Positions 2,108-58,126 of a stretch of 64,000 nucleotides of DNA are shown here, one piece after another. Each line of letters starts with the position of its first letter. Position 1 is the first letter of the stretch. The translations under genes were made by a program, and so were the position numbers. Origin of the DNA: Grifola frondosa (taxonomy: Eukaryota > Basidiomycota > Agaricomycetes > Polyporales > Grifolaceae); assembly GCA_001683735.1 (NCBI GenBank), contig LUGG01000013.1:1459594-1523593 (forward strand), given 5' to 3'. The notes beneath the pieces were generated by a model. The model did no database searches. It had not been told where the DNA came from and saw only the letters and a list, made by a program, of their open reading frames with translations.

Positions 2108-3100
2108 TCGCGAATGTTCGTCCGCCTCTGCAGCTTCTCGTCTCCTATCTTGACCTCCTACCTCTCGGAGAGCGCATACACTCGGCCATGCGCTCGCCGC
2201 TGCGCTCAACGACGTTCATGCATGCATGGGCAGCGCGCTCGACTTCGTCCTCAACTGCGCTGGGTCGTCATGCGGGTATGCATCCTGCTTCATCAACACC
2301 CGTCGCGCACCATCCGTGATGCGTCGTCGTCGGGGTGCTGGCTGGCCTAGGTGCGTATGTTCCTGCTTCTTCCTTCTGCTTATGTTAATCTCCTCACTCA
2401 TTAGGCACGGCGCGTCGGCCGTCGAGTGCTGTGTGTTCAGCTCTCGAGACGATCGCTTTGATGGCCTGCGGCTTCCCGCCGCTATCCCATGCTCGTTCGC
2501 AACTGTGGGCGCGTGTGCGACACGCTGCGGGTCACAGGTATGCGCGTCATGTTCTTCGTCACTTCTCTCCATGCTAGAACTGATCCTTGTCTTGGTGTAC
2601 AGTCTGCAGATATCCGTGCTCAGTCTGCGCAGTCTGCAGCACTCGTCCCACTGTTCCCTTCCTTCGTCGTCGTCTCTACTTGCTGGGCAAGCATTCGGCC
2701 TGCTCCACCTCGTCGCGTCACCACGCTTCGGGTCCTAGTGCGCTTTCCGCGTTCAACGACGCCCGAGTGGGTGCATCCGATGCATAACCAGCTAAGTATC
2801 TTCTTCTTCCACCTGCCTACCATCTCGTAACTGATCCTTCCTGACAGTGCCCTACGCACTGTGCACTATCTGCCGTCGGGCATGCATACTGCATCCGCGG
2901 CACCTGCGACGTTCATCTCGTCGGCACGCCTACGTTGCCCGACTGGCCTTCGCCCCACAGTTAGAATAAACGAACTGTTGGGGCACCTACTCAGTTCGTC
3001 TTCCTTCTTCGTTACTCTGCCTCCTGAATTTGCTGACTTAATTTCTCTCGAAATTAACAGCAATATTCATCTTCATTTTCCCGACGGCTCGCTTATCTTT
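2108..3100 (+). other. Candidate spliced, non-coding transcription unit
   Basis: Downstream of the TATA-like site there are three plausible introns: GTGCGT at 2351 to TTAG at 2404, GTATGC at 2538 to ACAG at 2602, and one ending in CTGACAG near 2848. They have branch-like CTGAT/CTAAC motifs. The intervening exons do not join into a convincing protein. I do not recognise a product. Confidence 0.3.
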
Positions 3101-3571
3101 CCTTGTCCGTAGTTGTAACTTCGTATCGGGACTGTAGACTCTATTCCTGTATTCTCGGATAGTCTTCCCGGATGCGAACCAACTGAAATCTTGCAATTCA
3201 CCGTATGATATCAAGCCATTCGTCTGCCTAATTCGTTCGTGGTATTTCTGCGAAACGACTCCTTCCATGTTGGCTTGGTCAAATACCCATCTTCATCCGG
3301 CAGCCACTTCAGCAAATTGTCCTATTCCTCATATCAATACTTAAGTGACCATCCGATCGGAACTATCCTCGATCGTGTCACTGCTCGCTTGCTTGTCCAT
3401 GACGTTTCGGCTTGATAAGTCAAATTAATGACTCGTCCATAATGCTTGCCACGTTAAACTTCGATTCCTTTGAAGGCTAGATCTCTGGATGATCTCGAAT
3501 CTCATATATCAAACCCCGCTCTTCAGGGTGCCTAGTTCCCTTGTTTTGGTGCTCATCATGCACCTCCGGAA
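3101..3571. other. No feature seen
   Basis: AT-balanced sequence without a credible reading frame or repeat, other than the left target-site copy CTCCGGAA (3564-3571) of the hAT-like element that follows. Confidence 0.5.
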
Positions 3572-4174
3572 TAGTGTTGTGCGGGCCCGGCTTCAGGCCG
3601 TCAAGCCGGCCAAGCCAAGCCCTAAGTAGGCCGAGCTGAGCCGAGCCATGAAGGACGGCTTGTGAGGGCTTGTGGCCTGGCCTAAGGGTCAAGCCGGCCA
3701 AAGCCAAGCCGTCAGGCCGGGGCTTTTAGTATGTAGTAATTCACCTCACTGAAAAACATTTACATTAATTTTGGAACCTCAAGATGAAGTTTCGCTGCAG
3801 GTTTTCGCAATAAACCCGAAAACTTGTTGATTCTCGGTCACAATTCCCAATTTGGCTGCATACCTTCCTAATTAGGGTCTGCAGCAAGGTGATATTGCGA
3901 TTTTCGAAACATTTTCGCCATTTTTTCACTACATTTTCACTAGCTATATCTACAGGTTATTACATCCAATATTGTAATACCACTGCAGGACATTTTTGGA
4001 TTGGATACTGAAGAAAAGAAGTTGTACAAAAAAGCCGGGGCCTGAGCCAAAGCCAAGCCCCGGCTTAGGCTTTCGACGGCTCATGGCCCGGCCTGACATT
4101 CAAACGAAGCCGGAGCCGTCTGAAGCCGGGCCAAAGCCGTGGCTTTCAAGCCAAGCCGGGCCCACACAACACTA
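3572..4174. mobile_element. Complete 603-bp non-autonomous hAT-like element
   Basis: The ends are TAGTGTTGTGYGGGCCCGGC in inverted orientation, with one mismatch over about 22 bp. A perfect 8-bp duplication CTCCGGAA flanks it at 3564-3571 and 4175-4182. TAGTGTTG ends plus an 8-bp duplication are typical of the hAT superfamily. The subterminal 150 bp at each end is dense in AAGCC/GGCTT repeats, the kind of sequence hAT transposases bind. The AT-rich centre has no coding capacity, so it needs a transposase from elsewhere. Confidence 0.88.
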
Positions 4175-4605
4175 CTCCGGAATTCTTGGTGTATCCTTGT
4201 TCTGCTATCCTAAATCGGTACTGGCCAACCATCAGCAAAAACTCGCCCCGCAGGTACCCAATGTAGGCGCCTGCAAGATACCGCATGTGGGCAAGAGGCG
4301 ACAAGCGACTACACGAGGCTACCAGACGCCTGCATATGGCCGGAGGCTACAAGAGGCTGCACGCGTCCAGTGCGGCCATTGTAATCCCTGTAGATACATT
4401 ACCATAGCTTATATATGTATATTTATTATAAAAGTGTGAATGCGAATAAGCCCCAATATTTTTTGCTGCGAAGATGTGAGCCAGTTCCCTCCTATTTGCC
4501 AAATCGGGGCATGGACCTTCCGAATTCGGTGATTACCTTCTCTAATCGGCGACGGTTTCTTCTCAAGTGCTTTCCCTTTGACGTCACGCTCTCTTTCGAT
4601 CTTGG

Positions 4606-4622
4606 GAGTTATATAAAAGGCA
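4606..4622 (+). promoter_or_regulatory. TATA-box promoter inside the shared end of element L
   Basis: GTTATATAAAAGG lies in the block that L shares with R, 155 bp upstream of the cargo ATG at 4773. R has GAATAAAAGG at the matching place, and the loose end at 47.4-47.8 kb has TTATATAAG. The conserved end therefore appears to supply a promoter to whatever gene is carried. Confidence 0.5.
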
Positions 4623-4772
4623 TCTCTTTCGGGACGTGCATACATCGACCCAACTCCCACTCTTCTCCCTGCCATACCACTCCAAATAGATTTTCTCATA
4701 TACACTGACAGGTCCCCGGGCATGTAAAATGCTCGCGACTGCTTTCTTCTTCCCTCATTTCCTCTCCCAGAC

Positions 4773-6692
4773 ATGTCGCAGAACGAGCTGGAGAGCATCA
4801 ACGCGCAGGAGAAGGACGGCGTTCTCGTGGAGCATGTTGAGCCGAAATCATCGCCGTCGGCAGACCCGGTCATGATGGAGGACCGCGAGCTGCTCGCGGT
4901 GGACGTGAGGCTCCGGCCTTGTGCGAGAGGGACTCACGATTATACCTAGCGAACGGCAGTCACGTCTGCGAAGTTGAAAGGTCTGACGCAGGATCTAGGA
5001 TTGACTGGTGAGTGTTGTCGCCGATGCTACTTGTATCGTGTGTTCACGCGTCGCTGCGGATATACAATGCGCGACCGTTCTGGCGGCGCTTTACGCATCC
5101 TACGTGCCCGTGCAAATTCCGTCCAACATGGTAAGTTCTCGCACGCACGCGTGAAACACTCATCTCATTTGTGCGCGTCCAGATACTAAATCGCATTTCG
5201 AGGTATCTGGCATTCCCTCTCACTGCAAGTTATATACTAATCTTGTTCATACGCAGGCCATCCTACTATCCCGGCGCGATATACTTGCTTTTGCGGTGGT
5301 ACACACGCAAGGTAAGCATTTCAGCCTCAACATGACACGTATTCAGGTATTGAACTATGGCAGGAACTTGCATTCCGATCGGCGATACTGTACGGGGTCT
5401 GCTGATCTCCAATGCACTTGGAAGCGTGAGGTCATGCCTTTTGGTTGTTTGCGCGGTCTGATCTTCCGTCAGCTTATGGCTGCTGGAATTCTGTCGGGAA
5501 TGGAAGGTAAGCTAGGTATACGAGCCTAGAGATGGTAAGAACAACGATAATAAGCCTCCGCACTACTCTAAATACTCACTATTCTTTCGTTTCTAGGTTG
5601 TTCTACATAGAGGTATCCTCCATAATATCACATCGCCTGTGCAATCGTTCTCTTAGATTGCATTCATCAGGGATCCATCACCGTCTGTCTTGGTTTCCTC
5701 AACGTGTATGTAATGTCGAGCTGTGTCATCCTGCCTTAAAACTGATCCCTGTACCAGCTTCCTATTGCCCGACTACGTTCGTCTAACCTCTCAGCCAGTG
5801 TCTGTATATACTGACGGGTAGACTGCAGCCCCACAACACGTGCTGGCTCACGCCTGCACAGCGGAGACTCGTGCAAGTCCGGCTCGCAGAGGACGCAGGC
5901 GAGGCCGGCGAGGATAGCTCCACCGAATCGTAAATAACGCATTTTCGTCCTGCGTGGTCTCATTTCTGACAATGCAACTACACAGGGCATTCACGGGGCT
6001 GATCATGGCTCTGAAGGACCCGAAAGTGCCAATATTTGCAGTCATGACCTGCGCACAGCTTCTGGGACTGGGTTTCGTCAACTTCTTCCCAACGTAGATC
6101 GATATCTGGTTACTTTCATTCGATACTCACTAAAATTTACTTTCAGGATCGCTGGCACGCTCAGTTTCTCTACAACCATCACACTCCTCCTTGCAGCGTG
6201 AGCACCACACACTCCAACACATGCACCTTGTCACTCACTTTCTCTTCCCCAGACCCCCGTGGATCGTCACCATGTTCGTCTGTTGTCTGAATGTCTGGCA
6301 TGCAGGTACGCTTTTCCCGCTCTCTCCACTCACTCGCCACTCATGCTCTCGTGAACAGACAAGACTGGTGAGCGCTACTTCCATATCTGCGTCCGTGGTG
6401 AGGCGTCATCGTCAGCTACATCATCGGCGTCATCACGATGTCCACCGGCGGCCGCTATGTCGCCATGTTCCTCATGGCATCCGGGTACGCCGGTGAGTCG
6501 AGACACTGTCCTTCTTTCTGAGTGAGACACTCACTCGGTCACTCAGACAGGCTTTGCGCTGACCCTGGTGTGGGTATTAAATGTGGTGCCGTGCCCACCT
6601 GCCAAATGCTCAGCGGCGATCAGCATCGGAGTCGAGCGTCGCGTCGCTGTGCAATGCCGAAGCTGCCGCCCCTGGACTGGATGAGGGAGCAT
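4773..6692 (+). pseudogene. MFS transporter (allantoate permease-like), decayed cargo of element L
   Basis: The ATG at 4773 opens a hydrophilic N-terminus beginning MSQNELESINAQEKDG. Recognisable pieces of a Dal5/allantoate-permease-type major facilitator follow in order: LTQDLGLTG (about 4983), a piece with VPVQIPSNM (near 5110), HPYYPG, FRQLMAAGILSGMEG (about 5468), ALKDPKVPIFAVM (about 6008), IAGTLSFSTTITLLL (about 6152) and FALTLVWVLN (about 6554). Some are separated by plausible short introns. An in-frame TAG at about 4947 removes the first membrane segment, and conserved residues are missing between pieces. The 3' end (signature NGFGNLGN) is lost where the shared right block of the element begins. 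The membrane-transport role is from family knowledge, and this copy is surely non-functional. Confidence 0.7.
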
Positions 6693-47394: not shown

Positions 47395-47774
47395 TCAAGA
47401 TCGAGAAAGTGATGTCATACTAAGAAAATGCCGAAAATGTTTAACACAATAAGAGAGGTAAGCATCAAATTTGGAAGGTCCATACCCCGATTTGGTAAAA
47501 TGTGAATCCCTCATCTTTGTAGCTAGATACAGCGAAAAAATATTTTACTACAATTGGATGCATGCTATACTCCAACATTACAAGGTACTTTATCTACTAT
47601 GTAAGCGGGAACCTGCATGTGCAGGACTGATGCGATCTGCTGCCTGCTCTGCTGGGCACTTGCCTTACCTGGCCAGACACGTGCAGTCTGGTAGCCTCGC
47701 GGCCACCTCTGCCAGATAGCGCGCATCTGGCCAGGTGCTGCAAAGACCACCGGACTTTTAAGTTTTTGCTGATG
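47395..47774 (-). repeat. Loose end (promoter side) of a CATCAGCAAAA-family element
   Basis: Reading on the minus strand from 47774: CATCAGCAAAAACTT, a GC-rich block with CACCTGGCCAGA, then GACCTTCCAAATTTG, TATGACATCAC and a TATA box at the R insertion point. The block with GACCTTCC is shared with L and R. The outer 250 bp matches 57880-58126 closely. Confidence 0.6.
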
Positions 47775-47856
47775 GCACATCATCTTGCATGCTCAAGTCA
47801 CCTTCCTCTCGCCCACTCTCTCACACATTCCCACGCCTTTCCTGAACATGGAATAG

Positions 47857-47939
47857 AGGGATCCACACTGACGTTGAATTTCGAATACATGGTGTACACG
47901 CTGGGTAGCCATCTGCGAGCGCCAATTGATTTGTGGGAG
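47857..47939 (+). pseudogene. AIF-like oxidoreductase gene, 5' piece
   Basis: After a likely acceptor AATAG at 47856 the frame reads GSTLTLNFEYMVYTLGSHL and RAPIDLWE up to the edge of the integrase element. FEYMVYxLGSHLxAPxxLW is characteristic of fungal AIF/FSP1-type FAD-dependent oxidoreductases. The gene continues at 56001. Its upstream exons are missing, and a transposon end abuts at 47774. Confidence 0.65.
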
Positions 47940-48007
47940 CCGGTTATGGCGTTCAATCTGTACAAATAAAAATCCGGGCGCACACGGCATATACGCGCGC
48001 ACACGGC
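47940..48007 (+). repeat. Left terminal inverted repeat of the integrase transposon
   Basis: Begins CCGGTTATGG and ends GCGCACACGG. The partner is 55929-56000. Confidence 0.75.
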
Positions 48008-48229
48008 AGTTAGACGCCCGAGCCGGCCGGCCGTTCCTCGTGGTGGTTGCCTAAGAAGGCAAGTAATATGGTTCATGTCGAGTGGAGATTAAGGGAGTTT
48101 GACACGTATGTGTTCTTCCACTCCTCTTTGTGTTCCCTCAAGTGCATGGGCGATGACCATGGGCAGTCTCGGCAAGGGTAAGTTGTCTTCTTGGCCATAA
48201 TCCGAATAATTGATTCATTCCTTCCTTAG

Positions 48230-48959
48230 GTTGAGTGCCAGTGGCTAGAGATCTTTGCGCGAGAACGTGCCAACGACTCGTCGATAGCGGCGCGGCTGGC
48301 AGTGGGATTAGGGCTGCATCCAATTCACTCGAACGAGTGGTTTCGGTACCAGTTTGCCCTCGCGGGGTACCAGCGGGAATCAGCGTTGCCGCTGAAGGCC
48401 GCCGTGCCACTCGCACTGCCGATCGATGCCATCGAGTATGCGGAGCGCGTCGCTGCGTTCTGGAAAATCTCTGCAGTGGACCGCTCGTGGTCTGTTGCAA
48501 CCGGTTTGCCTACAGCCTTGCGGGACGACGACCACCCCAGCGTGCGCATCGAGGCCATCTCCCCCATACCAATACCTGATACTCCCGTGAGTTGCATCTC
48601 TAATCGCAAGTGCGAAAGTTGACTTTGTACACGTATATACACGGACTGACATGTTCTTTTTGCTTGTTCAGTTGTACTACATACTCTTCTGTCTTGTTGC
48701 GCTCATACAGGGCCCTCTGTACGCGGGATTGCCATCGCAGAAGGAGATATTCTCGGTCTCGATCAGTACGTCTTGCTAACCCCAGTTCAATATGTGTATG
48801 TTTTACCATTAATCACTTTCTATAGGGCTTGAAACAGAGATCCTCATCAGTTGGTATGAGATGCCGCCCTCCGCCAACCCTACGAGCCTGCTCGCTCATC
48901 ACGAAGCTGGGCTCTTCGAGGAGCTGAGTGAAATCATCTCATCCATCCCGCACCACTGA
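48230..48959 (+). CDS. Unrecognised gene inside the integrase transposon
   Basis: Three exons join in phase: 48230-48586, 48711-48765 and 48826-48959 (546 nt, 181 residues plus stop), with consensus splice sites. The protein begins VECQWLEIFARERANDSS, has an alternation of hydrophobic and charged residues without membrane segments, and ends LFEELSEIISSIPHH. No in-frame start is found upstream of the acceptor at 48229, so the 5' exon is missing or the model is incomplete. I do not recognise the family. Third-position GC is higher than in the integrase gene, which hints at a separate origin. Confidence 0.45.
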
Positions 48960-49170
48960 AGCTCCGAAGTCAACTGCAGGATCTCCGATTCCTTGGGCCT
49001 CGCGACAATTCAAGTTCACATGGGTCGCGCGTCATCCTCAATTTCCACGGATAGCGAAAACGAGCAGCCAGTACGCCAATGCCGTGCTGTTCGTTGACGC
49101 TTCCGACGTGGCGGCCGGTTACATCTCGGTCGTCGTATCATCGACCATCGACCACCTTCACTAACTGCGT
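48960..49170. other. No feature seen
   Basis: A GC-rich stretch with an open plus frame (SRQFKFTWVARHPQFP...) but no recognisable domain and no splice context. Confidence 0.4.
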
Positions 49171-49560
49171 TCAGTCAGCGTTCCGAACACCAGTCGCTCT
49201 TCGACGAGACTGAGGACGATTCGGAGGCACAAGACCATGCTCAGAGACTAAACGAGCGATGGAAGTTTTATGCCCGCTGTCGGTCCTGGAGACGCTGATG
49301 AACAGGATCGTACTCTCATTGACGAGTACAGGCTGGGGCATGCTCGTCGTCCTGCCCATCGTCCATAACCGATCCAGCTCTTCAATCACGTCCAGCGCCT
49401 CACCCCATTGCCCTGCAGTGACTAGATTCCGCGCGACGCCCGTCATCTTCACCACCCCGCCCACGACGCGCATGCGCTCCCGCACTGCGCCCAAGTTCGG
49501 GAGCTTGCATTCTCTGCGCAAATTCTCGAGCTCGTGCTTCGCCCCGTGCTCGTCTCACCT
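49171..49560 (-). pseudogene. Coiled-coil vesicle-tether-like fragment (possibly Vps54-type)
   Basis: ELENLRRECKLPNLGAVRE and VVKMTGVARNLVTAGQWG, then EALDVIEELDRLW form amphipathic helices of the kind seen in GARP-complex tethers. A stop lies just upstream (near 49568). No ATG and no downstream domain are present, so this is a captured or decayed fragment. The family suggestion is weak. Confidence 0.25.
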
Positions 49561-49921
49561 CGTGCAGTAGTACCTCATGGTGCTCACCCCTACTAGCCGA
49601 ATATTCCATGTTGCACCAAGCCGATTTACGTCGATGCCATGCATGATATCCGTTCCTTGGCCCCAGTAAACCCAGCCCACCGGGGGCATGCTAGCACAAT
49701 GCATTGGGCAGAAGGCAGACCATGCACGCGCATACGGCGTGTCTGCGTTGGGCGCGATCTCGCCAGACGGGGATGAGGGCGCCGAAGTAACGTCCTTGCG
49801 GCGATGATCGTGAACGAGCTTGGCGACGCTCAGGCAGGTGGCTCACGCGGCTTTGGTAAATGCAACACTTTGTGCGTTGCAAGCTACATATTTCGTAGAT
49901 ACGCGTCTACAGCTCCGATCA
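49561..49921. other. No feature seen
   Basis: Intergenic sequence between the tether-like fragment and the 3' end of the Cys-rich gene. No repeat or coding pattern noticed. Confidence 0.4.
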
Positions 49922-51453
49922 TCAGAACTCGAAGAGTGTGCTACTCCCACCACTCCACGGGTCACGAACGATATCGAAGTAGTCCGGGGAGCTCTGGCTG
50001 ATAGGTTGGGGAGGGGCACCAACTTGCTGCGGGACAGGCGTCGGCTCTCGTTCACTATCTGAGAGCATGGTGAGGTCAATGTCCACATGGGGCACTGCAG
50101 TGGTGCTGTTCTCAGCAGTGAACACAGGTGAGTTGGCACAATCATTGTCATCTCCAACTTTAATTTTCTTCGTCTTTCTAATAGGGGAGGCCAAAGGCCC
50201 GCGCTCGATTTCCTCATCCGTAGTTGTGTCGTCGATGCTAGGGAGATTCGGCGAACGTTTATGTGTATTAATCTCGTGGTCGCGAGTGCATTTGGCTGTG
50301 GTGTTCGTGCCTGCCGTTAACGAAATGAGGCTTGATGAGTAAGTTGACCACTCACATCTCTGATCATCCCGAGTCTCGTCATCCGAGTTGTCGCTAACAT
50401 TGTTATCATCCTCCTGCTCAGACAACATCACATCACTCTGTTTCCAAGCATTGTAGACCTCTGGTGGGATTGTTTTGCGTGGAGCTAGAATACAAACAGG
50501 TGAGGACAGTGAAATTAGAATATCGAGGAACTCACGAACCGATATAGATGTGAGAATCTTTAGGCCCGGCGCCGTCACGGCCCTTGAACTCGTTAAAGTC
50601 GTCTCCGGTTGGATAATCAATCCCAGTCATTTCCACAGTGCCCTTGTTCGAATATAGGAGAATGTATGGCAGCTTGCGAGTTTCAATGCTGTCGACGTCA
50701 TCCTCCGTCTCGATGTCCATAATCCACGGAGCACTTTTCGCCATGTGCTTGAAAACATCGGGCAGGTGATCTCTCAGGAAGACATGCATCTGCACTGAAT
50801 TCCAGGATGCCATAAAGCAAAACCCGTCTCTGAGGTTAGAGACACCGAGTCCGGACTCTCGCAATTTGCGCAGTTTGAGCTTGTTCGGGAGAATTTTTTT
50901 CTCCAAGCTCGCCGTCTCTCGCTATGACAAAAGTTAACGTTTGATAATATAGGTATAATCTCCAATTTGCATACATCAATGCCCCATGGCCAGACCATTA
51001 TAGATGTAACTTTAACAGGCTTCTCTTCGACGGGCTTCTGTTCTTTGCGCGATGTGCCTTTTGCCTTCCCCTATGGATACATTTAAGGAGTTAGCAGCTT
51101 ATAATCAGCTGAACACATACCTTCGCCTTGTTTCCAATGGTCTTCGCTGTGACAGTTTTCCCCGACTTGCGAAAGTAAGCATTTGTTTCATTGCGAGCTT
51201 CCGCAACCTTAACAGGGTCTACTTGCAGGTCGCGAAGGATTTGTTGGACCCGAGATCCATGCGAAGATACGACAGCATGCCCATCACCATCGTGGTTGGA
51301 TTTGCCATGCGCGCACTCTCGACAAACAACACAGCGGCCAGGAATCAGATCGTCTGGGTCTTGGTACACCTTGCAGTCACAAGGCTTGCCCCTTTCATCA
51401 TCAAAGGCTGTGCAAAAGCCTGTTCCCGGAGCCACAGTGCTTAGCGGTGACAT
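49922..51453 (-). CDS. Cysteine-rich protein of unknown function, partner of the integrase gene
   Basis: ATG at 51453. Predicted exons 51453-51121, 51070-50975, 50921-50540 and 50484-49922 keep one frame (458 codons). A 45-nt in-frame intron may also be removed from the last exon. The N-terminus has CDCKVYQDPDDLIPGRCVVC followed by RECAHGKSNH, a probable zinc-binding motif of C-x-C...C-x2-C...C-x2-H type. The middle (LRESGLGVSNLRDGFCFMAS..., IMDIETEDDVDSIETRKLPY) looks folded. The C-terminal third is acidic and Ser/Pro-rich and ends GGSSTLFEF. It lies 109 bp downstream of the integrase stop, on the same strand. The donor of intron 3 (GTTCGT) is weak. A role with the integrase is inferred from position only. 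Confidence 0.6.
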
Positions 51454-51562
51454 TTTCGAGAGGAGTGAAGATCTGGTAAGCGCAAAATCGCAAATTTCTC
51501 GATGTCGTCTGACTCATACTTTCCCAAATCAGGTATGTCACCTTTGTGTGACGAAACATGCT

Positions 51563-53589
51563 TTAGGCCGCATTCTCGTCTACGGCGTACAAAATGTAGT
51601 TCATAAGGTGCAAAGCTTGGCCCCATAGCTCAACACGAGGACACCATACATGCTCAGGTAATTCCACCTCCAGCTCCCTACGTCCTCTACGCCCTGACCG
51701 AATTGTCTCGCACGCCTCGTAGCCATTTTCCTGCTCCTCTGGAAGAAGACCATATCCTGCTGGTAACGAGTGTTCGTGACGAAGAATATTCAATGCAGCG
51801 AAGTACTGCTGGCGAAGTTCCTCAGTAGCGAAGGGGTTAGAGTGGTTCGGCACGTCTATGGGTTCGTGACGAATATTAGGCTGTTGAGTATTGGCTATGT
51901 GTTGTGACAATTCGACCTCTGGGCTATCTGAACCTTCTGAATCCTCCTCCTCTTCAGGTGGATGGCCAGCACCAGTTGGACGATGTCCATGTTGCCTAGG
52001 ACTTGAGGTAGTACCGTAGAATTCGTGCAAAATATCGGGATGGACATCTGCGCCGTCGTCGACATAAATGCCGTTTGCTGTTTGTCCGAGAATACGCATA
52101 TCCTAATTAACTTATCAGATGAATGCTTGATTTTTAAACACGGAACACTTACATTAGGACTTTGATCATGAGTATCGGAGCCAGAGATAGGATGAGCATT
52201 CCAGTCAACTTGAAATGATTGGCAATCGGCATTGATGCTGTCCAGAAATAAGGAGTGTAATAGCCAGAGATGATGAGGATTTGTTCGATCCAGCTGATGC
52301 AAGCGTTCAAGCCGCGTAAAAAATACTCGCCATTCACGGCAGAACTGTCTGCCAACTTCTACCCACAAACGTTCAATCCGTGTGTTGTGTGTAGAACTAT
52401 TATTTGGTTATTAAATGTAGGATGAATCTATATTGATAGATGATCTTACCTGCCCCACATAAATGATGCTCTATTTGGACCTCTGCGGAGTATCATCCAG
52501 ACAGACACCGCAACATTTTCACCTCCGCGATCGCCACGAACACGCGACGGAACACCGTAATGTTCAACTGCTTCAATAAAAACATCTAGGACAGTTGATG
52601 CAGAATTATTTACACTTGCACGTAAGCCGGTAACCTAATAGCTTCTGGTGAGTAAATTGCTTTATGGAATAGTTAATACTCACAGTGCGACAGAACCCAT
52701 CTATGAAACCATGAATCACAATGCCCCATAAAATTAACTTATGGTGACCATCACAATGCCATAACGCATTTGGACGTGAGGATTGGTATTTGCGTCGCTG
52801 AATACTTCGGCGTTGACGTAGCACATGTCCGAGGCCGTCGACACGTCGAAGTGATTGATATAATCGAGTCTTCTGAATGCGGAATCCGTGACGCCGTAAA
52901 AAGCCCAGCAAATATCGGATACCAGAGTTAGGCTTTTTGCGCTTATATGTCTTGACTATGAGATCGAGTTCGTCATTGGAAATGGCTGAATAGTCCCGAG
53001 TGAGTCCATAGGTCTTCAAATTACGATGAATGGTGTGTCGGTGAGTGCCGAGGACCTTTGCAAGCTTGGACAGAGAGATATTCCGAGTTGGTGACATAAT
53101 TTCTTCAAGATATGTTTGATTGATCAACTTGCGAGGCCGCCCCCGATGTCCAGTTTGTCGGACAACAACTGGCTGTATACTTGCAATATTTGACTGATCT
53201 CTATCATGTCAGATGATTTTTGGGTAAGTTTGTCAATACACCAAATAGAAACTGAATACTTACGAGCCCTCTATGCCCTTAATTGCTGCTCCTAATGCAG
53301 CAATAAGTGTACCTACTGCAACAGCCGCACTGGTGAGCCACGGCCCAGGTAATGCAGGTCCATCATATGAATTTTGCCCCAGTGCAATGAGGATCGGAAC
53401 AGTCTCAGTGTTAAGCTTGTCTAGATGATATTGAAGCCGAAGAGGATCAGCATTATCAAGGTGAAGTAGTTCCAAAACTCGGTCATATGTGTCACTTATT
53501 GTTCTGTGTGCAACAGAAACATTGACAGACCAAACCAATTGACCAAGACCTTCAGGCAATGGTGGAAATTGAGCTGGGAGGTCATTCAT
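51563..53589 (-). CDS. Integrase-core (DDE) protein
   Basis: Exons 53589-53264, 53200-52684, 52634-52450, 52396-52153 and 52102-51563 join in frame to 603 residues. The ATG at 53589 is the first. The open frame extends to 53685 without one. A helix-turn-helix region (ISLSKLAKVLGTHRHTIHRN) precedes the integrase core. Catalytic residues are D in LWHCDGHHKL, D in VRGDRGGENV and E in STHNTRIERLW, at the usual D,D-35-E type spacing. Downstream are WLLHSLFLDSINADC, DWNAHPISG and an acidic C-terminus ending in VWCPRVELWGQ. No stops or frameshifts were found. Homologues with this layout are multicopy in Agaricomycetes. Strand transfer at the TIRs would be its expected activity. Confidence 0.8.
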
Positions 53590-53718
53590 TGCCAGCTGGC
53601 AAGTCAAGGTTGCCGGAAACGCAGCGATCACTTTAGCGGGTTCGCTCAACTTGTCAGCCACCACCCTTTCCGGCTTCAACGACAATCCGAGTGTTGCCCA
53701 AATATCCTTATCGGTAGC
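53590..53718. promoter_or_regulatory. Shared divergent promoter region (integrase / BTB genes)
   Basis: Only 129 bp separates the two ATGs. No TATA box is evident. The integrase frame is open through most of it, so the two transcripts may overlap. Confidence 0.35.
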
Positions 53719-54787
53719 ATGACTATCACATCTCCACTGTCTAGTTTAGTAAATCCACTCGAAGATCAAGCCCCAGTGAGGTCTAAAGACTATTACTTCG
53801 AAGATGGCACCCATGTTTTTCAAGTAAGTCCGATCTGTCTAATATCAGAGAATACCGGTCTTAATATGTTAAGGTGGAGAATGTCCTATATCGTTTACAT
53901 GAAGGCATCCTCCAAAAAAGGACAGATATGTGTGGAGGCATGTTTAAGTTGTCGGAAGGCCAGGAGTTGGATGGATTACCTGCAAAATTAGTGACCTGGC
54001 TTGATGGAAAGGATGATCAGTCTCCAATTCGGCCACCACAGGCCACCCGACAGGAGTTTGAGCACCTCCTTCATTACATCTATGGAGAGTGAGTCCGCCA
54101 TCATTTGTTGAGCTATACTTCGTGACAAGACTTACCACGAATCTAAGGTGGCAGAGTCCACCTTACCCACTTGACTATCTTATCGCTGTCTTGAAGTTGT
54201 CATCCCAATGGGATATGGCACAAGGGCGAGCATTTGCGGTCTATAATCTCAAGCAGATCGAGAAAGACTTGCCGCCTGCACTTCGGCTCAAGCTCGGACG
54301 AATCTACGACCTTGATGAATGGCTTCTTCCTGCATTCCATGCGCTCGTGTTTACCCCGTTGGTGAAGTTAACACCACAAGACCTTCATTGGCTGGGATTA
54401 TCAGCCTACTCGCTGGTTGCACGTGTTCGGGAGAAGGCAGAAGCGGAGCGCAAGACACTCGCATTCATCCCGCCATCAATGGATGATATCAAGATCCCCG
54501 AGTGCACTCGCCATGAACAGTGCATCAAAAATTGGAATGATCTTTGGGTGTCGAAAGTTGGCAAAAGGGTTTTGCACCCGAACCAAATCTTCGCACTCAA
54601 GTTCTGGCAAATCCCTCATGTCCTGGAGAAGTTAGACCTGTCGGGTATCTTCAAGAAATGTGGTGAAGCAGTGGTGGCGAAGGCATTGGCATCGGGAGCA
54701 TTTGAGAGGGAGGAACTACTAGTGGGTCAGGCCTTCCAGTATCTGTTGTTAAATGTTCCACTCGAGGACAAGCATATCATGTTATGA
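53719..54787 (+). CDS. BTB/POZ-domain protein
   Basis: ATG at 53719. Exons 53719-53823, 53874-54088 and 54148-54787 give 319 residues with no interruption. The N-terminal half is a fungal-type BTB fold: DYYFEDGTHVFQVENVLYRLHEGIL, then MFKLSEGQELDG, then TRQEFEHLLHYIYGE, and PYPLDYLIAVLKLSSQWDM at the end. The remainder is helical (DLPPALRLKLGRIYDLDEWL; LTPQDLHWLGL). Such proteins are very numerous in mushrooms and are thought to be protein-interaction or ubiquitin-ligase adaptor modules, though substrates are unknown. It is divergent from the integrase gene. Its intactness inside the transposon marks it as recent cargo or a component. Confidence 0.8.
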
Positions 54788-55060
54788 GTTAAATTAGGTC
54801 TAGTAGTACTATACATTCCACAAGGAGTAACAATGCTTTCATCAAATATGTCTGCGGCAAGTTCTCGTCTCCGCGCTGTCTTCGTGGCTGCCCGCCGCAG
54901 CTGCAGGTCAAACACTGTGTATATCCCCAGCTCCGACAGCATCACCCACCCTTTGTCATGGTCCAGCCAGTCCTGCGTGCAGTGCTGTCGGATCTTCAGC
55001 GCGAATCAGCGCCCGCATCTTTGCCTGCGCCGCATTCATCCACTCCGCCTTGTTCCTTGA
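54788..55060. other. Decayed continuation of the PPR fragment
   Basis: Minus-strand sequence continues the reading of the next feature with stops. Nothing else seen. Confidence 0.3.
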
Positions 55061-55640
55061 TCAGCAACCATTAGAACCGGAATGCCAGAACTGGGACGTC
55101 CGCCCGCAGTGCTGCCACCATGCAGTCCTGCCCCATGTGCATTGTCGGCACCAGCCCCACATCCAGTAGAGCGCTGTCACCCCGGCTTCCCATGCCTTGC
55201 GCATGAGAGACAACACCAGCGGAACATCGCCGTGTATGATCGCCCAGTGGATAACCGTCCCGAATGACACCGCATCGGGCTGCAGCCTATTCTCATGCAT
55301 GACACAGGCGAGAGGCTGCACGGGCTGAAGGGAGCGGGTGGAGCACGAGCAGCGGAGATGGCAGCAGTAACGAGGGTGGGTCACTCTGTCAGCAAACCAC
55401 ATCGTAGAGCACATATCACTCACCAGTGTCGGGGAGGAGCATCTCCTGCAGGCCAAGTAAGTGGTTCCAATACTACAGCTGGTAGCCGCATCATGCGTGA
55501 GATTGGAGTGCGTCCGGAGGTGCAGCCGACGAAGTGCATGATGGGAGACATGTATAGAGCACACAACAGCAGGTAGCGGTCGATGCTGTGGCCCACATGC
55601 AAGTCTGAAACCTTCTGGAGCAGTGAATGTGTACACGCCG
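55061..55640 (-). pseudogene. Pentatricopeptide-repeat-like fragment
   Basis: MHENRLQPDAVSFGTVIHWA and DVPLVLSLMRKAWEAGV read as one and a half PPR helical repeats (x-LxPDxVSFGTVIxWA). Upstream HVGHSIDRYLLLCALYMSP may belong too. Frame changes and stops surround it. PPR proteins bind organellar RNA. This piece is too short to act and is probably a captured fragment inside the transposon. Confidence 0.45.
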
Positions 55641-55928
55641 TGTGGGTGTCTGTGGGGCAACCGACACGTCAGAATGTTTCTCAAGTGACTGATTACATAC
55701 GGATGTTTCGGCATCGACCATAACGAACATGCAGCTGTCAGCGGTGAAGATGTGGATCACCTCCGTTTGGCCAGGAAGTGAAGTACACAAGTACACCTGC
55801 TATTCTAATCAGGCAGAAGACAAGTAGAGAAGTGAGAGGCTTGTGTTAGCTGAGGCTTGTGTTACTTGCTGCCAGGTGTCGTTCGAACGTTCGAATTGAC
55901 GGTAACATATGTGACAAGCTCTGTCACA

Positions 55929-56000
55929 CCGTGTGCGCGCGACCGAAATATGCCGCGTGCGCCCGGATTTTTATTTGTACAGATTGAACGCCATAGCCGG
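55929..56000 (-). repeat. Right terminal inverted repeat of the integrase transposon
   Basis: On the minus strand, CCGGCTATGG to GCGCACACGG, matching 47940-48007 with two substitutions and a 5-nt insertion. Confidence 0.75.
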
Positions 56001-57186
56001 TGGGGGACGAGCCTGTGGTTGATACAACCAGTGCCAAGCAGCGCAACGAAGTAGAGGCGCATGGGCAGTCGACTGTGCCCCGAACAGCACCCTCGGCACC
56101 CAAACAAGGAACGAAATCCGAGGCTATCCAAATGGTTGAAGCGCTTCCAGACGCGCATCGACTCCGTCTCGAGTGTGCTCGTGGTCGGCGGTGGCGCACT
56201 TGGCATTCGTACGTGCTTCTCTCCTTTGTGCAGCAGAGCTTGATGAGGGTGTCAGATTATGCCACGGACATAGCAGAGATATATGCGGCGATTCGATCAG
56301 AGCATGCATATAGAGAGTGAGTGGCTTGTATATATCGGACAATATGCTAAATAGGACCACGCTTGTTGCGCTAAATGTCAACACCATCCTTGGAGAACGC
56401 CTGGACCTCTCTTCTCTTTCCCCGTGCAAGACAGTTCGGATCGGTACAAGCGGGAAGGAGGAGCGTGTGGTATGCACGGAGGGAGGCTCGAGGTTCGCGC
56501 CGAGCTTGTGGTGAGTCTTCGTGACTTGCATAGCTTTGGATTACGTGACAGTGTTCCGTACCTCATAGATATAACTCTTGTGCACGGCACAGAAGCCAAA
56601 CACTCGCCCGTGCCCGAACCGGAGCGAGCGGTTTTACCGTCCGACAGCGCCGATGCACGCCCATCGGCTGCGGAGTCCCAGAGCGCAGGTGGATTACTCG
56701 GAGACGAGGAAGATGGTGAGGGGGAGCAGGAGGCGGAGGAAGACCCGACGCTGCGCATGCGCTATCCACACGTCTTCGCGATCAGTGATGTGGGCGTTGC
56801 AGTTGATGCGACCGACAGTATCACACCCTCGCTCCCATCTTGGCTGTCCTGGAAGGATGACTGTCTGTCCGGCGTGCCGCCGCCCGACACACAGAGCTGC
56901 AACGTCACGGCGGAAGTCCAGGTCTGTCGCTCGCTCTCATCCCTATATGCGTGCTTTTCTTACCGTCTTTTGGTTCATGCAAGACAGCAAAGAAGAGGTC
57001 CTCGTACACACCATCCACATTACAATCGCGCCCATGGCAAACATCGACTCCTCGTTCACTCCTTCATCACGGCGGCCATCCCTCGTCGGCGACATGCACA
57101 ATGCGTGCCGGATCCAGAATGACTCGATGCTATCACAGCCGCAACCGCCCCGTAGCGAGTGGGTCATTAACGGCACTGAGATGTGA
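56001..57186 (+). pseudogene. AIF-like FAD-dependent oxidoreductase gene, 3' piece
   Basis: Continues from 47939: GDEPVVDTTSAKQRNEVE, GTKSEAI, then (one-base frame change) WLKRFQTRIDSVSSVLVVGGG, ALGI, an intron, and YATDIAEIY. LNVNTILGERLDLSS and YPHVFAISDVG follow. VVGGGALGI is the NAD(P)H-binding Rossmann motif and the FAISD segment matches the conserved FAD-side GD motif (here SD). The family comprises NAD(P)H:quinone oxidoreductases/AIF homologues. The gene is broken by the 8-kb transposon and by at least one indel. Exons past 56925 are uncertain. It ends upstream of a transposon-like end at 57608. Confidence 0.65.
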
Positions 57187-57879: not shown

Positions 57880-58126
57880 GTCTTGATAGCCAGACACACT
57901 GAAAATTATTATTAATTGGGTGCACATATATCATAACATATTACAAGGTAATTTATCTACATGCAAGAGAGTACCAACCTGTGCATGACTGATGCATGTT
58001 CTGCTGGGCGCTTGCCCTATCTGGCCAGACACGCACAGTCTGGTAGCCTCGTGGCTGCCTCTGCCAGACAGCGCGCGTCTGGCCAGGTGCTGCAAAGACC
58101 ACCTGAGATTCAAGTTTTTGCTGATG
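57880..58126 (-). repeat. Loose promoter-side end of a CATCAGCAAAA-family element
   Basis: Terminus at 58126. Very similar over about 250 bp to 47525-47774, including CTGGCCAGGTGCTGCAAAGACCACC-type sequence next to the end. The partner end is not found. Confidence 0.55.

Follow-up and report, generated by a model that had tools for sequence, protein, structure and literature searches.

We analysed a stretch of 64,000 nt of the Grifola frondosa genome (contig LUGG01000013.1, here C12, positions 1459594–1523593), referred to below as the window, whose end coincides with the contig end. All genome searches were carried out on this one genome of 39 Mb. The window contains a complete DNA transposon with terminal inverted repeats (TIRs), lying at 47945–55995 between two copies of a 6-bp target-site duplication (TSD). 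It carries a transposase gene of the integrase type and two further genes, encoding a Cys-rich and a BTB-like protein, and it sits in a paralogue of a gene which we take to be AIF-like. From its ends, TSD and transposase domain, we assign it to the known IS3EU superfamily, with arms that contain DNA of several host genes (Table 1).

Ends, empty site and family copies

The original prediction, that the integrase gene belongs to a TIR transposon which duplicates 6 bp of its target, was borne out, while the proposed ends and the letters of the duplication had to be replaced. The inverted ends, of about 60 bp, start TATGSCGTTCAANNTGTACA, and both element ends begin TATGGCGTTCAATCTGTACAAATAAAAATCC. 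Their alignment is identical in 60 of 67 columns and scores 101, whereas none of 200 mononucleotide shuffles of the two 400-bp ends exceeded 28. The boundaries proposed previously, CCGGYTATGG with an imperfect duplication TGGGAG/TGGGGG, describe letters which are indeed present, and the self-complementary CCGG lengthens the inverted match by chance. Since GCCGGT is nearly its own complement, its CCGG had been mistaken for element sequence; it is part of the TSD, which is identical at both flanks, and the element itself starts with TATGG. A search with the left flank returned one other place in the genome, C7:389484–389638, at 89% identity. The joined flanks align to this locus without a gap at the corrected junction, and GCCGGT occurs there once; the C7 locus is a paralogous empty site of the insertion. 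After the corrected cut the reading frame LGSHLRAPIDLWEPVGDEPVVDTT runs across the junction, whereas the previous cut yields LGSHLRAPIDLW(E or G)TSLWLIQ... followed by a stop. Frame continuity, cited previously in support of the insertion, thus holds for the corrected cut and fails for the earlier one, and comparison with a homologue of the interrupted gene, for which we used C7, likewise refutes the earlier join and supports the corrected one. The other three complete copies start exactly with TATGC and have no CCGG. We therefore rejected the earlier boundaries and TSD on the basis of the empty site, the frame break and the starts of the other copies, and give them practically no weight.

The gene at the target site was also described too generously as an AIF-like gene. 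Homology to C7 is limited to 47776–56783 of the window, the element aside; the paralogue in the window is devoid of the 5′ part present in C7; and a one-base length difference relative to C7 breaks its frame. For these three reasons the interrupted gene is a 5′-truncated, frame-broken paralogue. The C7 stretch matches Pyr_redox_2 at E 5.3e-5, under the curated cut-off, and beyond this match the label AIF-like is our assumption. Two direct repeats, 47659–47774 and 58011–58126, bracket the paralogue and have CTTGCCTTACCTGGCCAGACACG, CTGGCCAGGTGCTGCAAAG and GTTTTTGCTGATG in common. The paralogue begins immediately past the left repeat, so that it, too, may owe its position to another repeat.

Allowing up to 3 mismatches, the end pattern TATGSCGTTCAANNTGTACAWWTAA matched the genome at 10 places, compared to 2 for the reversed control pattern. 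Eight of these form four pairs, corresponding to four complete copies, all of which begin TATG, end CATA and are flanked by perfect 6-bp TSDs (GCCGGT, CCCGGC, CACGAA and GTCTGC). The chance probability of four such TSD matches is near (1/4096)^4. The fifth terminal base is variable across family copies. In the 5.1-kb copy on C2, one internal deletion (C12-element positions 2620–5831) took away the integrase together with the first part of the Cys-rich gene. The remaining two matches are single, so that the end block does occur alone, a point raised for checking in the original prediction, but both can be explained as damaged copies. At C3:1941359 the copy is split between element positions 49 and 42 by a 6.04-kb insertion with an 8-bp repeat, and at C12:1447013, 12.5 kb before the window start, a 38-bp end is followed by unrelated DNA. 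The 6.04-kb insertion (copy region C3:1940900–1950800) has inverted ends starting TTAGTCTCG/GAGACTA and an apparent 8-bp target duplication GGCATATA, and is a nested transposon of another kind. We additionally observed a remnant of the family at C4:37694–38819 and a heavily decayed copy at C22:548702–549674, with integrase and Cys-rich remnants and without a BTB-like match. Pattern searches for relatives in viral and prokaryote contigs, collections without fungi, gave 14 and 42 matches, none of which was confirmed.

Transposase and partner genes

The uninterrupted DDE integrase of 603 residues proposed previously is supported by a five-exon model with introns inferred from sequence and no internal stop. 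Pfam assigns rva_4 to residues 247–426 (E 1.7e-58), and the predicted catalytic residues are D259, D316 and E351, in a D-56-D-34-E spacing. An HHCC domain was not found by the Pfam scan, the only search made for it, which returned just weak helix-turn-helix matches upstream. Integrase matches occur at four loci genome-wide, on C12, C4, C3 and C22, and Cys-rich matches are present at all four, so that within this genome the Cys-rich gene does accompany the integrase, as had been suggested for checking. In the gene model it begins 109 bp downstream of the integrase on the same strand, in agreement with the original prediction. The Cys-rich protein has no Pfam match at E ≤ 10 and no sequence relative in PDB.

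For the BTB gene, said earlier to be intact, an open model of 319 residues in three exons is present, with the BTB assignment itself being weak. Matches to it were obtained on C12, C2, C3 and C4 and at three weak host loci, and none was seen on C22, placing it at three of the four integrase loci. In PDB sequence searches the BTB-like model had a single, sub-significant match (E 0.35) and the integrase model likewise a single one (E 0.55), while the Cys-rich model had no match. Single-sequence structure predictions of BTB exon 3 and Cys-rich exon 3 had mean pLDDT values of 36.4 and 37.9. The comparison of a profile from four element copies with one from six host BTB proteins, five of which are encoded at loci where PF00651 matched above cut-off, gave a probability of 97.4% in hhalign. 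Hmmsearch on the same six host proteins matched five with E-values no higher than 0.007 and the sixth at 0.12; these E-values refer to six sequences. At least 44 BTB matches (PF00651) in the genome pass the E 0.001 limit, and many of them are clustered on C5 and C6.

Across 213 codons of BTB exon 3, the C12 element and the 5.1-kb C2 copy differ by 33 synonymous and 16 nonsynonymous changes (omega 0.12 by NG86 and 0.27 by YN00; Fisher p 2.7e-12). This exon is constrained in the C12/C2 pair, on a branch which a pairwise omega leaves unspecified. Between more distant copies, dN/dS was saturated or gave no value in most comparisons.

Many eukaryotic TIR transposons need a transposase alone, which counts for an alternative in which the element carries the BTB-like and Cys-rich genes as passengers and derives no function from them. 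The same can be said of the other partners, an alpha-kinase and TET, carried by IS3EU elements of rust fungi according to the available text of their description (PMC12730594). However, C12, C3 and C4 share one arrangement, in which the Cys-rich gene comes after the integrase in the same orientation and the BTB-like gene is transcribed divergently. This order is kept across copies whose proteins are 40–70% identical, and the BTB-like frame is open, with a different start, even in the 5.1-kb C2 copy without transposase. We consider the passenger alternative possible though clearly the less probable one, and regard the two proteins, from this conservation of sequence and order, as putative conserved partners travelling with the transposase.

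Host DNA in the arms

The anatomy described originally was incomplete, as it missed host-gene fragments in the arms of the element. In three arm searches, each of five stretches matched one non-element place at 84–92% identity, so that fragments of five host loci make up 1596 of the 8051 bp. Among the donor frames, Pfam identified Fungal_trans (E 2.4e-16), Vps54_N (E 1.1e-3) and PPR (E 1.5e-3), the latter two sub-cut-off. The two frames that Pfam did not name are, in our impression, presumably EPL1-like (donor C2:2053k) and acyl-CoA-dehydrogenase-like (donor C22). A match at C8:1525660 reaches 76% and may be a further family remnant and not a donor, since the DNA around it is similar to the right arm as well. 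An intron-like stretch retained in the C22-derived piece and a splice-donor-like stretch in the C4:1849k piece point to copying at the DNA level. The Vps54-like and PPR-like pieces are, at least in part, interrupted by stops or frame shifts.

Comparison of the copies showed that C2, C3 and the remnant near position 38 kb of C4 share sequence beyond element position 318–320, with 90% identity between the C2 and C3 arms over 42–532. The C12 copy does not contain this sequence and diverges at 318 into 13 unassigned bases, the transcription factor piece, the C22 piece, 9 bases and the C2:2053k piece. The last of these is also found in the 5.1-kb C2 copy, where more of its upstream part is present. 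The C12 copy has thus replaced older DNA, including part of a fragment captured earlier. At this place it no longer has DNA that C2, C3 and the remnant keep, and two host loci have contributed pieces instead.

Alternatively, the host fragments could have been gathered by ordinary segmental duplication or nested insertion after landing, without any habit of capture by the element. Such an origin would be in keeping with the surroundings, since the AIF-like paralogue around the element is a gene fragment that arose by duplication and the window lies at a contig end, possibly a fragment-rich place. However, two of the five donor loci are represented in the 5.1-kb C2 copy as well, by the C17 and the C2:2053k piece at matching arm positions. 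These pieces therefore predate the separation of the copies, and the C2 copy bears an additional donor piece of its own, C8:27510–28117, at 82%. Accumulation after landing is thus unlikely. Only about 0.5 kb separates donor C4:39333 from the family remnant on C4, as expected for capture from nearby DNA, in a single case. In the arms of the complete C4 copy, domain matches are sub-cut-off only (zf-C2H2, E 0.0056; NAD_binding_4, E 0.018), and host capture in this copy is suggestive only.

Table 1. Features of the element, its target locus and its complete copies. Positions refer to the window unless a contig is given.
Feature	Position	Strand	Basis or remark
Whole transposon, TATGG...CCATA, 8051 bp	47945..55995	- (transposase strand)	ends, TSD, empty site
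Left TSD, GCCGGT	47939..47944	.	TSD comparison, empty site
Right TSD, GCCGGT	55996..56001	.	TSD comparison, empty site
Left TIR, 62 bp	47945..48006	+	end alignment
Right TIR, 67 bp	55929..55995	-	end alignment
Transposase/integrase, 603 aa, 5 exons	51563..53589	-	gene model; Pfam rva_4
Transposase exons	53589-53264, 53200-52684, 52634-52450, 52396-52153, 52102-51563	-	introns inferred from sequence
Cys-rich partner gene, 457 aa, 4 exons	49922..51453	-	gene model; homologues at C3, C4, C22
Cys-rich exons	51453-51121, 51070-50975, 50921-50540, 50484-49922	-	one of 32 open splice combinations
BTB-like gene, 319 aa, 3 exons	53719..54787	+	gene model; weak family evidence
BTB-like exons	53719-53823, 53874-54088, 54148-54787	+	open reading model
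Captured fragment	48276..48617	+	donor C4:1849791-1850135, Fungal_trans transcription factor gene, 89%
Captured fragment with intron-like stretch	48722..48973	+	donor C22:516579-516827, 87%; no Pfam name for donor gene
Captured fragment	48983..49330	+	donor C2:2053958-2054317, 87%; no Pfam name for donor gene
Captured fragment	49346..49571	+	donor C4:39333-39558, Vps54-like ORF on opposite strand, 89%
Captured fragment, blocks 54873-55166 and 55168-55301	54873..55301	+	donor C17:171253-171788, PPR-like ORF on opposite strand, 84 and 92%
Short match, possible sixth donor	55322..55377	+	C19:52659-52715, 86%, 57 bp
AIF-like paralogue (5′-truncated), left part with target site	47776..47944	+	flank search, C7 alignment
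AIF-like paralogue (truncated), right part	56002..56783	+	C7 alignment
Complete copy, 8051 bp	C12 (window)	-	TSD GCCGGT
Complete copy, 952 bp	C2:89133-90084		paired ends, perfect 6-bp TSD
Complete copy, 5154 bp	C2:681902-687055		paired ends, perfect 6-bp TSD
Complete copy, 8995 bp	C4:1505267-1514261		paired ends, perfect 6-bp TSD

Placement in IS3EU and proposed model

The original prediction regarded a transposon with these ends and TSD as undescribed. This does not hold, since IS3EU has been in Repbase since 2013; in the available text of the source it always has TA..TA ends, usually 6-bp TSDs, and a first catalytic D located 100–300 residues from the N-terminus, without HHCC (PMC10045372). 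The present family agrees in its TA..TA termini (four of four paired copies), in its perfect 6-bp TSDs (again four of four, plus the empty site) and in a predicted rve-like DDE core with D259 in that range and no HHCC domain detected by Pfam. For TET-bearing IS3EU elements of rusts, the accessible part of the report gives ends TAYGG..CCRTA, 6-bp TSDs and TIRs longer than 30 bp, with the alpha-kinase gene oriented opposite to that of the transposase (PMC12730594). The C12 copy resembles these in its TATGG..CCATA ends, in its 62/67-bp TIRs and in a multigene layout with one gene divergent from the transposase, and differs in having Cys-rich and BTB-like partners and host-gene fragments in its arms; Pfam scans of the element proteins gave no alpha-kinase or TET match. 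The same superfamily label has been applied in the mushroom-forming fungi Ganoderma (PMC8955403) and Phlebopus (PMC12411881), in the available text as copy counts without anatomy. The literature searched, a weak test, contained no report of the Cys-rich/BTB pair or of host-gene capture in IS3EU.

The rve/rva_4 catalytic core would also be compatible with another rve-type group, namely Polinton/Maverick, Ginger1/2 or IS481EU, and Polintons likewise make 6-bp TSDs (PMC10045372, as far as available). The longest ATG/GTG/TTG open reading frame (ORF) listed for the region is, however, 232 aa, so that no intact DNA polymerase B gene is present, nor did the scanned proteins give a Pfam match to one, although no dedicated polymerase search was made. 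The earlier argument against a Polinton thus stands, and Polinton was rejected on coding content. Ginger1, Ginger2 and IS481EU, with TSDs of 4, of 4 or 5, and of about 4, 15 or 25 bp in the same text (PMC10045372), were rejected on the 6-bp TSD of all four copies. Taking the TA..TA ends into account as well, membership in any of these groups is very improbable.

With respect to gene capture, the element resembles Pack-TIR/Pack-TYPE elements, that is, TIR-bounded, TSD-flanked host fragments with donors elsewhere, here five donor loci. It differs in its full transposase model, since Pack-TYPE elements are described as non-autonomous in the available text of two surveys, whose main text, to the same extent, does not name IS3EU (PMC8277862, PMC8903248). 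Pleurotus Helitrons are likewise fungal transposons with captured genes, but are rolling-circle elements without TIR or TSD in the accessible description (PMC4289320). The C12 element therefore fits, by its sequence features, a multigene, gene-capturing lineage of the already known IS3EU (IS3EU/GingerRoot) superfamily.

We propose a model in which a cut-and-paste-type IS3EU transposon with three genes of its own has had its arms rewritten with host DNA, to which we assign a probability of roughly 0.87. By analogy to its family, the DDE transposase would recognise the inverted ends and join them to the target across a 6-bp stagger, giving rise to the 6-bp duplication. The Cys-rich protein may act as an accessory DNA-binding or assembly factor and the BTB-like protein may interact with the host. 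The replacement of DNA between core genes and ends by host-gene pieces is observed, and most likely it proceeded by template switching during repair of a break in or at the element.

Several observations weigh against this model. The matched integrase exon contains stops at three of the four loci, with only the C12 exon open, leaving activity of the family conjectural, and three of the four complete copies have TATGC..GCATA ends without CCGG as opposed to TATGG..CCATA in C12. The IS3EU placement is drawn from ends, TSD, TIR and transposase domain and not from a transposase tree, and the family evidence comes from one genome. The BTB-like protein has no Pfam match at E ≤ 10 and no significant PDB sequence match, leaving the BTB assignment weak, and the pairwise omega is silent on selection after the C2 copy lost its transposase. 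Regarding capture, the omega of 0.29 between the captured transcription factor piece and its donor is likely caused by the donor's own constraint, two breakpoints carry 13 and 9 unassigned bases, and gene fragments also lie outside the element (the AIF-like paralogue).

More speculatively, and only tentatively, the elements could represent an IS3EU lineage with a three-gene core, in which the BTB-like protein hijacks host ubiquitin or silencing machinery and the Cys-rich protein is DNA-associated, with arms continually rewritten while the element bears its transposase, and which sheds BTB-keeping, transposase-less derivatives like the C2 copy. In mushroom-type genomes, elements of this sort would then contribute to gene shuffling and account for part of the BTB gene expansion. 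If the proposed model itself is true, IS3EU would gain a lineage in fungi for which ends, TSD and empty site are defined and two partner genes are conserved, and host-gene capture would be demonstrated in a superfamily that the available main text of the two Pack-element surveys leaves unnamed. A capturing element that bears its transposase in a haploid-culturable fungus would make the repair model of capture directly testable, and the BTB-keeping derivative raises the question, open to testing, of why a transposon would conserve a BTB protein.

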